From NCBI RefSeq assembly GCF_016584665.1, contig NZ_BBJB01000055.1, positions 1 to 58,933 of the forward strand: 58,933 bases of DNA, read 5' to 3'. A program made the position numbers and the translations under genes. Shown one piece after another: positions 30,563-33,084 of the stretch. The notes under the pieces were generated by a model. It was not told the DNA's origin and did not search any database. It was given only the letters and a program-made list of their open reading frames with translations. The DNA is from Pseudanabaena sp. lw0831. Lineage in GTDB: Bacteria; Cyanobacteriota; Cyanobacteriia; Pseudanabaenales; Pseudanabaenaceae. The first letter of the stretch is position 1; every line of letters begins with the position of its first letter.

Positions 30563-30973
30563 TTAAAGCCTACAAGTCTCGATGCGAGAAAAGACATGAT
30601 TAAAATTCTGTCTCTTTGTTGGGTAGCTCACATATCCATCCTTTTTCCATGCTGTGCGATCACAGAATTTATCCCAGGTCATATGACTAGGATAACTAAA
30701 ATCCAGCTTACCACCACACTCGACATAAATATCCCTCTGAACGCTAAAGCCATAGAGACCATTGCTGTAATACACCCATAACTGGTCAATCGTCCACAAA
30801 TCTTTACAAGGAAAAATCTTGATTGAATCCACATCTAGATAACCTTGACTTTCTCGATTCGCAACCTTCAGCATATGTTTAGCCATCAGTTCATCTGCCT
30901 TCCGCCACTCCTTCGCCTTCAGTAACTTCTCAAGTTCACTGTAGTCAATTCCCTTCGTACTAAGCAATTCCAC
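30563..30973 (-). CDS. GUN4-domain protein, stand-alone and short
   Basis: This 136-aa protein is almost only a GUN4 domain: GIDYSELEKLLKAKEWRKAD, then GYLDVDSIKIFPCKDLWTID, QLWVYYSNGLYGFSVQRDIY and W..F.DR.AWKKDG. Classical GUN4 binds porphyrins and activates Mg-chelatase; in cyanobacteria GUN4 domains also sit on signalling proteins such as kinases and caspases. The typical C-terminal porphyrin-loop region after the last block appears replaced or cut short. It begins with GTG and overlaps the caspase-DnaJ gene by 14 bp in another frame, so translation is probably coupled, or an original fusion was split. Confidence 0.85.
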   Translation of the reverse strand: MELLSTKGIDYSELEKLLKAKEWRKADELMAKHMLKVANRESQGYLDVDSIKIFPCKDLWTIDQLWVYYSNGLYGFSVQRDIYVECGGKLDFSYPSHMTWDKFCDRTAWKKDGYVSYPTKRQNFNHVFSRIETCRL

Positions 30974-32657
30974 AGTTTTTTTCGACTTGTTCGGTTGGTA
31001 TGGAAACAGGTGTTACCGACTGAATGTTAACAGTAACTAAATGATCGCCTCGTTCTATTGGATTGTCTAGCTTCGGAACTCCGCGCCCTCTTAAACGCAG
31101 AACTACACCACTCTTAGTTTTGGGTGAAATGGTTAGTAAAACAGAACCATCTATAGTATCTATATTTAGTTGACAACCTGAAAATGCCTGTGCTTGGTTT
31201 ATTTCAATTGTTGACCTGATATTAATACCATCTCTCTTAAACTTATTATCACTTTCAACAAATAAATAGACATACAAATCACCGACTGTACCACAATAAG
31301 CTCCAGTATCGCCTTCATTCTGAACTCGCAAACGAGTTCCAGTATCTACTCCTGCTGGAATAGTAACCATTAATTTTTTAGTAACTTGAACGAGACTTAA
31401 CCCATCACAAGTTGTGCAAAAATTTCTGTTCAACAAAATGTTCTTAATACCGCTTCCTCCACAATCACAGCACTTTTCTATATGGGAAATTTTAATTGTT
31501 TTTTGCCCGCCGAATAAGGCTTCTCGAAAACTCAAACGTAAATCAAACCTTAAGTCTTCTCCTCTTTGAGGACTTCTCTCGATTTCAGGCGCAGGTGATG
31601 CTGCTACCGTCGGTACTGACGGTGTTTTACCGATAGACTCTCTCTTGAATTCGCTAGGAACAGAAGGTGGAGAAACTGGCAACGCTGAAGGTGTTTTACT
31701 ACCCTGATTCTGATGGTTAACTTGATTATTCGGTTGTGACTTAGGTGAGGACTGCTTATTAGCCAAACGCTGAAAAGCATTAATTGCTTGCATATCCGTC
31801 CCACCCGCAGCCACATTCACCCGCATCCATAACTGAAAAGCCAACCTAAAATCGCCTTCTGCTTCCGCATGGAGCGCGTCAACCTTGAGCAATGTAATAT
31901 CCGTCAGATTGGCAAACTTCGGCAACAAAATATAATGTAATTTCGTGGCAGGTTCGATGACAGCGTAAGGCGTTTGCCGATAGCCATTTTTATAATGTTG
32001 AGTCAGACTCGGTACGCGATTGCGCAGATATTGATAAAATCGCTCCACCGTCGCACAGTTTCCCTCACCCTGAATCCGCAACGCCTCTAGCAACACATTC
32101 GTAAAAGCCCCCTGCTGAAGAGTCTCGATCTCATAGGAAACCTGTGACGGACTGCAAGAAAAGAACGTAATTACACCCTGCTGCTTCTCTTCCCCCACAC
32201 CCATACCCGCATTTTTTGCGCCATCATTACGACAAGCATCAATCAACATCACCACATTATCCGCACCACTCCGCCGCAATCTCTCTGTTACATAGCTAAT
32301 TGGAATTGCAGTTTTAGTAGTGCGCGGATTGCCATCACTCGGCAACAGATAATCCTTCCCTTCGCAATGCATTCCATGCCCACTAAAGTAAAACCATAAC
32401 GTGTCACCTGCTTCTAAAAATGACGATTCAAAGCGATCAGTCAAGAAAGAATCGAGCGTGCCATAGGTCGGTTGTGTTTTACGGTTCTGAGCATTGCGTT
32501 GTGAATCATCGGTAAAGAAGTAGAGATCGTTGGCATTTATAGCCAAATCTTGCCTGAAATAATCACGCATTCTTTCAGCATCACCCTTGGCAAAATTCAA
32601 AGGCGAAATTTCATCGTAATCATTAATCCCGACAATTACCGCGCAATTTCTCGCCAT
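30960..32657 (-). CDS. Caspase-like protease fused to DnaJ zinc-finger/C-terminal domains
   Basis: This 565-aa protein starts with a caspase (C14, orthocaspase-like) domain of about 245 residues: VIVGINDYD, the catalytic His94 in FYFSGHGM and Cys142 in LIDACRND. A helical stretch and a Pro/Ser/Gln-rich linker (about 300-365) follow. From about 368 the sequence DLRFDLRLSFREALFGGQKT is the start of the DnaJ substrate-binding region. It has a reduced zinc finger (Cys396/399 and Cys414/417, one zinc site, not the eight Cys of DnaJ) and then DnaJ C-terminal domains (PAGVDTGTRLRVQNEGD, LRLRGRGVPKL). No J domain is present. Its neighbours are a Trypco1-type gene 4 bp upstream and a GUN4 gene overlapping downstream. 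A role as a protease triggered through client-protein binding is inferred. Confidence 0.9.
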   Translation of the reverse strand: MARNCAVIVGINDYDEISPLNFAKGDAERMRDYFRQDLAINANDLYFFTDDSQRNAQNRKTQPTYGTLDSFLTDRFESSFLEAGDTLWFYFSGHGMHCEGKDYLLPSDGNPRTTKTAIPISYVTERLRRSGADNVVMLIDACRNDGAKNAGMGVGEEKQQGVITFFSCSPSQVSYEIETLQQGAFTNVLLEALRIQGEGNCATVERFYQYLRNRVPSLTQHYKNGYRQTPYAVIEPATKLHYILLPKFANLTDITLLKVDALHAEAEGDFRLAFQLWMRVNVAAGGTDMQAINAFQRLANKQSSPKSQPNNQVNHQNQGSKTPSALPVSPPSVPSEFKRESIGKTPSVPTVAASPAPEIERSPQRGEDLRFDLRLSFREALFGGQKTIKISHIEKCCDCGGSGIKNILLNRNFCTTCDGLSLVQVTKKLMVTIPAGVDTGTRLRVQNEGDTGAYCGTVGDLYVYLFVESDNKFKRDGINIRSTIEINQAQAFSGCQLNIDTIDGSVLLTISPKTKSGVVLRLRGRGVPKLDNPIERGDHLVTVNIQSVTPVSIPTEQVEKNCGIA

Positions 32658-32661
32658 ACCT

Positions 32662-33084
32662 TTAAACTGTCTCCGAAGCCTTAGAAACCTTGGGCAACTC
32701 TGCCCGTTTAAATTTTAACTCGATCGCCCCTTTTCCAGATGTCTCGATACCAGTACCTAGCAGCTTAATTTCACCCTTACCCGAAATCTCCACCGCCAAC
32801 TTAATCTCATCCAGTTGCAACCCTGCTAGCGGATCGATTTGTTTTTGAGCATCAGCAAAGACTCGACCGATGATCCTCACAAACTGCGACATTTGCGTTG
32901 CAAGTGTCACGGCTTTAACGCGACTCTCTTTAAGTTCTTCTCCTGAAACTGATGCTGTAGATGAACCGTAAGGATTATTACCTTTACCGCCAGCTTTCTG
33001 ACCTGTTTCCGTAGATTGTGAGCGATCTTTGGGTTCACTCGTGACGATCCACAATTCCTCATCACCCCAATTTGATTCCTGCAT
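32662..33084 (-). CDS. Trypco1-type (trypsin-co-occurring domain 1) protein
   Basis: This 140-aa protein has a hydrophilic N-terminal half. Its C-terminal segment LDEIKLAVEISGKGEIKLLG (91-110) followed by a Gly-rich bend and GAIELKFKR matches the pattern of the CU044_2847/Trypco1 family. Members accompany trypsin- or caspase-type proteases in predicted bacterial conflict systems and may sense or tether. It is the first gene of the three-gene operon, 4 bp upstream of the caspase-DnaJ gene. The family call is by pattern and needs a profile search. Confidence 0.72.
   Translation of the reverse strand: MQESNWGDEELWIVTSEPKDRSQSTETGQKAGGKGNNPYGSSTASVSGEELKESRVKAVTLATQMSQFVRIIGRVFADAQKQIDPLAGLQLDEIKLAVEISGKGEIKLLGTGIETSGKGAIELKFKRAELPKVSKASETV

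Follow-up and report, generated by a model that had tools for sequence, protein, structure and literature searches.

Contig NZ_BBJB01000055.1 of the cyanobacterium Pseudanabaena sp. lw0831, analysed over its full 58,933 nucleotides (the "window"), carries three adjacent open reading frames (ORFs), all on the minus strand (33084-32662, 32657-30960, and 30973-30563), which encode a Pepco protein, an orthocaspase fused to the client-binding part of the chaperone DnaJ, and a GUN4 domain. The reading tentatively preferred here is that the first two form a Pepco-orthocaspase pair in which a DnaJ_C domain occupies the exchangeable sensor slot of the caspase and responds to misfolded or foreign protein. 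The anatomy is well supported; the mechanism is one we infer. GUN4, FGE, and WD40 domains are known behind orthocaspases, and what is new is the presence there of DnaJ_C, so far in one genome. E-values of 1e-23 or less for Pepco, Peptidase_C14, DnaJ_C, and GUN4 rule out chance matches. An earlier examination of this DNA (the original prediction) had described three tightly packed genes, and this is confirmed, with a 4-bp gap between the first two ORFs and a 14-bp overlap between the second and third.

The Caspase and Its DnaJ-Derived C-Terminus

The second ORF (30960-32657) encodes 565 amino acids (aa), in which Pfam recognizes only Peptidase_C14 (PF00656, 85.5 bits, residues 4-234, corresponding to 31956-32648) and DnaJ_C (PF01556, 129.5 bits, residues 370-546) at E ≤ 1, and no J domain. 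The complete catalytic dyad claimed in the original prediction, His94 (32376-32378) and Cys142 (32232-32234), is kept in all 58 aligned caspase rows, including that from the window; these rows had been preselected for a long caspase match. A full-length AlphaFold model, based on an alignment of 77 of 79 prepared rows, is informative for the caspase half only. There, 28 of 31 blocks of ten residues, counted from the N-terminus, have a predicted local distance difference test score (pLDDT) of at least 90, and the best Foldseek matches are a paracaspase (MALT1) and metacaspases. With a predicted caspase fold and the His/Cys dyad, the protein can be placed among the Peptidase C14 orthocaspases, for which cleavage after basic residues would be predicted. 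It matches the generic caspase model of PADLOC; with 73.7 bits against a cut-off of 140 it falls outside the EACC1-associated caspases (NF047832, NCBIfam). In a comparison with 58 genomes the caspase half (approximately residues 1-360) is strongly matched in relatives, while the DnaJ half does not track it.

Homology to DnaJ starts at about residue 360 and extends to about residue 555 (30993-31580), taking in C-terminal domain (CTD) I, a single zinc site, and CTD II. The reduced zinc finger (31407-31472) consists of Cys396/399, which align with CxxC repeat 1 of DnaJ, and Cys414/417, which align with repeat 4; repeats 2 and 3 are missing from the alignment, so that the four CxxCxGxG repeats and two zinc sites of DnaJ are not present. 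Pfam and the alignments thus bear out the earlier description of a caspase fused to a DnaJ substrate-binding region with a one-site zinc finger and no J domain. Identity to the genome's own DnaJ is 75% over CTD I (59/79) and 49% over CTD II (38/78). Folded alone from 20 sequences, the DnaJ_C part gave an AlphaFold model with a mean pLDDT of 82.8, whose best match in the PDB is Streptococcus pneumoniae DnaJ (6jzb, TM-score relative to the query, TMq, 0.74). The predicted fold is that of the DnaJ C-terminal domains, and with the PF01556 match it places the segment among the client-binding domains of DnaJ. DnaJ carries a C-terminal dimerization helix, which is missing here since the segment ends shortly past CTD II.

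DnaJ repeats 1 and 4 presumably make up Zn centre I. The accessible portion of PMC4428491, with reference to Linke 2003, assigns substrate binding to Zn centre I and DnaK interaction to Zn centre II; it also states that the last CxxC pair aids substrate binding and that the co-chaperone work of DnaJ did not suffer dramatically when the cysteine-rich domain was deleted. The zinc site may accordingly not be essential. With the CTDs and repeats 1 and 4 retained and the J domain and repeats 2 and 3 gone, client binding would have been kept and coupling to Hsp70 lost.

Insertion at the Caspase/GUN4 Boundary

The DnaJ_C segment is an insert relative to a syntenic locus. This related locus, L008, shares 84.6% identity with the window over a stretch that includes the gene preceding Pepco, Pepco itself, and the caspase up to window position 31615. 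Homology resumes at 30983 in the window, while L008 advances only from 1535 to 1513 (blastn), so that the window has approximately 630 additional bp (30984-31614), encoding DnaJ_C, between caspase and GUN4. At the left junction the frame runs unbroken from the caspase linker into DnaJ_C. At the right, DnaJ_C enters the stretch that precedes GUN4 in relatives, Lys-Lys-Asn-Pro/Ser-Val-Glu-Leu in six of the nine whose codons were compared. The window is two bases shorter than these relatives at this point (30971-30983), next to a run of seven A residues (30976-30982). The caspase-DnaJ_C frame consequently ends four codons on, and a GTG at 30973 opens the GUN4 ORF in a different frame. An ancestral single caspase-DnaJ_C-GUN4 chain is suggested.

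Since the frame changes next to a homopolymer run, it might be suspected that the insert or the altered frame arose in sequencing or assembly and is foreign to the organism. This is extremely unlikely: the insert sits some 30 kb into a contig of 58.9 kb, both its flanks are syntenic with L008, and it is close to none of the DnaJ proteins in the trees described below (highest overall identities 56 and 60%), so no source for a chimera is seen. An error of single bases at the A run may still account for the altered frame.

The GUN4 ORF itself (30563-30973, 136 aa) scores 109.4 bits against PF05419 (cut-off 29.2) and belongs to that family, with a shortened tail. Only model positions 2-109 of 141 are matched, compared with 2-135 in the fused relative L006 (read as L052), and the alignment to the solved Gun4 structure 1y6i stops at 1y6i residue 194; any tetrapyrrole cleft in this protein is putative. 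Of the 12 loci that match best (L006-L017, 68-85% identity), 11 encode a caspase with GUN4 fused at its C-terminal end (L014 carries GUN4 twice), and the remaining one (L015) has FGE there. The Pepco gene of these loci precedes that for the caspase, and a small ORF sometimes separates the two. To judge from these comparisons, the "bare GUN4" gene of the original prediction is the detached, shortened end of the caspase-GUN4 fusion of its relatives; the domain assignment and the separate ORF stand, but the proposal of a separate, co-evolved porphyrin sensor is not supported, GUN4 being the caspase's own C-terminus in the relatives.

It could still be argued that GUN4 senses the tetrapyrrole state and that DnaJ_C is a mere spacer or dimerization piece. 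GUN4 fusions are common in Pepco-caspases, tetrapyrrole control of fused enzymes has been proposed (PMC7159879, in the portion available), and the ratio of nonsynonymous to synonymous substitution rates (dN/dS) over the first 94-95 GUN4 codons is low (0.18 and 0.15 relative to L006 and L008). With GUN4 in a separate ORF from which the end of the domain is missing, and an insert that lacks the DnaJ dimerization helix, this reading is very unlikely.

The final GUN4 stretch of the caspase-GUN4 proteins from L006-L017 varies strongly by species, by eye, while the rest is conserved. A thirteenth locus, in a further Pseudanabaena genome (G024), has a broken caspase with GUN4 in a separate downstream ORF (L018:1501-3543). 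The window GUN4 also matches the PADLOC model for PD-T4-6, at positions 305-413 of 450 only, and cannot be assigned to that system. The C-terminal part of this model matched both GUN4 proteins tried (window and L008), so that GUN4 proteins may be miscalled as this defence system.

Pepco-Caspase Pairs in Other Cyanobacteria

The first ORF (32662-33084, 140 aa), the caspase's partner, matches Pepco (PF24393) with 94.7 bits against a cut-off of 27, over all of model positions 1-112 of 112. Its earlier assignment to Trypco1 has to be abandoned, as no Trypco family in Pfam-A matched at E ≤ 1; the caspase, DnaJ, and GUN4 assignments of the original prediction hold.

Pepco is present in 135 of 388 Cyanobacteriia genomes. 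Sixty loci (L099-L158) in 54 genomes, from the upper part of the resulting list and omitting the window's genus, two contig-end loci, and genome G046, were classified with local profiles, a caspase being counted if encoded by a same-strand ORF within 1 kb. One was found in 45 of the 60. Pepco was upstream in 38 of these, separated by no more than 17 bp (overlaps included) in 32, and downstream in seven. The caspase is part of a gene pair that recurs, such as has been described for predicted conflict systems, in line with the original prediction. The C-termini of the 45 caspases vary: 20 carry FGE/C-lectin and 11 GUN4, eight have another domain or none, and six are fragments. Of the eight, which include L137 and L147, the other six were scanned with Pfam, which identified WD40 in L101, nSTAND NTPase 5 in L136 and L146, and the caspase alone in L118, L119, and L134. 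The base module that recurs is Pepco plus a caspase whose C-terminal domain is swapped among lineages, so that a pair of genes with interchangeable sensors is common. DnaJ_C was beside Pepco in none of the 60 loci, and the caspase-DnaJ_C fusion was found in one of 26 Pseudanabaena genomes, the window's own. No recurrence of the trio was found as far as searched, an outcome that the original prediction had itself named as grounds for refutation, and the idea of a three-gene system is given up.

The name "Pepco" did not appear among the matches listed in a literature search, or in the available portions of PMC7159879 and PMC8195603. Two further Pepco loci were noted in the window's genome. One, on contig C56 (L053:2057-2647), encodes a 196-aa protein with a partial Pepco domain (38.1 bits) and GUN4; its orthologues may be among the proteins of other Pseudanabaena genomes that match Pepco weakly. 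The other, on contig C21 (L049:3524-4595), has a Pepco gene followed by a truncated ORF for the caspase and, in a different frame, a fragment of FGE, and is apparently a decayed Pepco-caspase-FGE copy.

Origin and Constraint of the DnaJ_C Insert

No other caspase-DnaJ_C protein was found among the matches listed for 386 genomes of the phylum and 388 of the class. J-less, one-zinc DnaJ_C modules occur in other settings: in G123 (L045:4345-5580, 411 aa) behind an N-terminal region that has no family name and looks helical on inspection; in G453 (L180:2244-3869, 541 aa) with TPR repeats; and in G540 (L181:3916-5253, 425-445 aa) with an unnamed C-terminus. In a tree of these three, the window module, and 17 DnaJs, the window falls outside a weakly supported group (83/79) made up of the DnaJs and the G123 module, and its nearest rows by tree path are the DnaJs of its own genus and family. 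The G453 and G540 modules pair (98/97), with a long-branch warning. A single clade of all four J-less modules is neither rejected nor established (p = 0.477, approximately unbiased test), and an earlier tree (21 of 31 DnaJ ORFs plus the window) had the G123 module among the DnaJs of G123's family (98/98). All four modules have Ser where all 17 DnaJs have Leu, which is a hint of kinship only. A profile built from the four rows matched only its own members at E ≤ 1e-70 (1/192, 1/63, and 1/36), a limit that may hide weaker kin.

Other partial DnaJ proteins were seen as well. A 329-aa protein of G040 (L046:618-1607) has a Cys-rich N-terminal part and a DnaJ_C without any zinc repeat, and two Pseudanabaena genomes have 143-aa DnaJ pieces with repeats 1 and 4 only, adjoining dnaJ (L047:2265-2696 and L048:2137-2568). 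Spread of the insert by phages or plasmids was considered and is not supported; the matches listed (the best 20 of 372 plasmid records and the best 20 of 31 phage records) have approximately 25-35% identity, and those with an annotation are called DnaJ. Nine pattern matches in viral contigs included no relatives of the insert.

Compared with the genome's own dnaJ, the insert differs at 0.42, 0.26, and 0.62 of first, second, and third codon positions, with dN 0.42 and dS saturated, a bias that indicates coding constraint on DnaJ_C. Its G+C content at third codon positions (GC3) is 0.25. For 15 long window ORFs chosen by us the mean is 0.39 (sd 0.04), and none of 295 sliding windows in them had a GC3 of 0.26 or below; the insert has thus had a history unlike that of its neighbours.

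These properties bear on the possibility that the locus is a neutral or decaying chimera, a DnaJ fragment that entered the gene by chance, detached GUN4, and has no selected function. The restriction to a single genome, the split and shortened GUN4, the further broken Pepco-caspase copies in the genus (L018 and L049), and the deviant GC3 would all agree with this. Still, about 200 codons have stayed open although the protein has diverged by more than 40%, codon-position bias is seen, and the four zinc cysteines are all kept; the caspase dyad is intact; and dN/dS is low both for the caspase part (0.11 and 0.14 relative to L006 and L008) and for GUN4, which speaks against simple decay, although such averages cannot date the time since the split. 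On balance a chimera without function seems unlikely, though by no means negligible.

Possible Role

If the DnaJ_C domain does act as a sensor, it would bind exposed stretches of non-native polypeptides independently of Hsp70, and client binding would gather the caspase units or release them, leading to cleavage of target proteins. Pepco would restrain or license the caspase. The outcome might be arrest or death, or else selective proteolysis. Every step, from binding through activation, we infer. The suggestion in the original prediction that the DnaJ part presents misfolded proteins to the caspase is retained here in altered form, as possible sensing. To our knowledge, the trigger of caspases in cyanobacteria is largely open; a sensor swapped for a chaperone client-binding domain would give a concrete and testable one, unfolded protein, and the sister GUN4-fused proteins with a like caspase are a natural control.

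In favor of this proposal, the exchangeable C-termini (FGE, GUN4, WD40, nSTAND NTPase 5) fit the logic of a sensor slot, the insert lies at the caspase/GUN4 boundary, and the retained CTDs with zinc repeats 1 and 4 appear suited to client binding. The coding constraint and predicted fold of DnaJ_C, and the J-less one-zinc modules of G123, G453, and G540, point the same way. Several points weigh against it. The fusion is known from a single genome, and its locus may be decaying, given the split and shortened GUN4. There is no caspase within 1 kb in 15 of the 60 Pepco loci, and the part given to Pepco, that of holding or licensing the caspase, is putative. The constraint on DnaJ_C could be older than the fusion; caspase activity, client binding, and phenotype are all predicted only; and the flanking genes, detailed below, do not look like a defence island. 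A more specific possibility, that the caspase is gated directly by unfolded protein through a DnaJ domain freed from Hsp70, as one of a scattered set of cyanobacterial J-less one-zinc fusion modules, is doubtful at present.

The same anatomy would fit a quality-control protease, in which DnaJ_C is an adaptor handing misfolded clients to the caspase for daily proteostasis, with neither trigger nor death. Caspases typically cleave at few sites, which does not favor such a role, and the swappable FGE, GUN4, WD40, and STAND C-termini resemble sensors rather than degradation adaptors. Parallels can be found in partial DnaJ-like plastid chaperones such as ZnJ2, which resembles BSD2 (PMC5818400), and in a cyanobacterial caspase-prefoldin architecture (PMC3501461), as given in the portions of both papers available. 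Overall this explanation is unlikely, to about the same degree as a chimera without function.

Comparison with Known Systems

Several described systems resemble the locus in part. An N-terminal caspase with the His/Cys dyad and a C-terminal accessory domain are found, as here, in orthocaspases of cyanobacteria that carry GUN4, FGE-sulfatase, or WD40 domains (PMC8283722, PMC3501461, and PMC2853523). The available portion of PMC8283722 gives 35 accessory Pfam domains for 473 cyanobacterial orthocaspases, and DnaJ_C, present here, is missing from that list; the word DnaJ is absent from the main text of PMC3501461 and PMC2853523, and no caspase-DnaJ_C protein was reported in the titles or abstract openings of the matches listed in a full-text literature search. 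The peptidase conflict systems of Kaur et al. (PMC7159879 and PMC8195603, both in part) are alike in combining a caspase or trypsin effector with a small, conserved partner and variable C-termini, including GUN4 and FGE. They differ in that the partner here is Pepco, and that no MoxR, vWA, VMAP, or alpha/beta-hydrolase genes were found among the scanned neighbours, a subset of the window ORFs, so that on this basis the locus does not belong to the MoxR-vWA (VMAP) ternary systems.

The insert has CTD I, CTD II, zinc repeats 1 and 4, and the fold (6jzb) in common with type I DnaJ (Hsp40), and lacks its J domain, repeats 2 and 3, and the dimerization helix. The plastid proteins BSD2 and ZnJ2 presumably keep the zinc finger without the CTDs, whereas the insert retains its CTDs and half of the finger. 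They resemble it in being DnaJ pieces, used as stand-alone chaperones (PMC5818400, in part). Targets of diversity-generating retroelements include orthocaspases placed before a C-lectin-type domain (PMC10907252 and PMC7517822, in the portions available), as in the FGE-bearing Pepco-caspases. No evidence for such a retroelement was found in the window's genome, where the sole RVT_1 locus scores best as PADLOC reverse transcriptase type VI.

Flanking Genes and Other Observations

The neighbours scanned encode GyrB, RuvC, DUF4189, a Trypsin_2-PPC protein, and GH57, along with two short ORFs without an assigned family. The RVT_1 locus, on contig C3 (L163:3592-4780), consists of a helix-turn-helix gene followed by the reverse transcriptase, and is retron-like.

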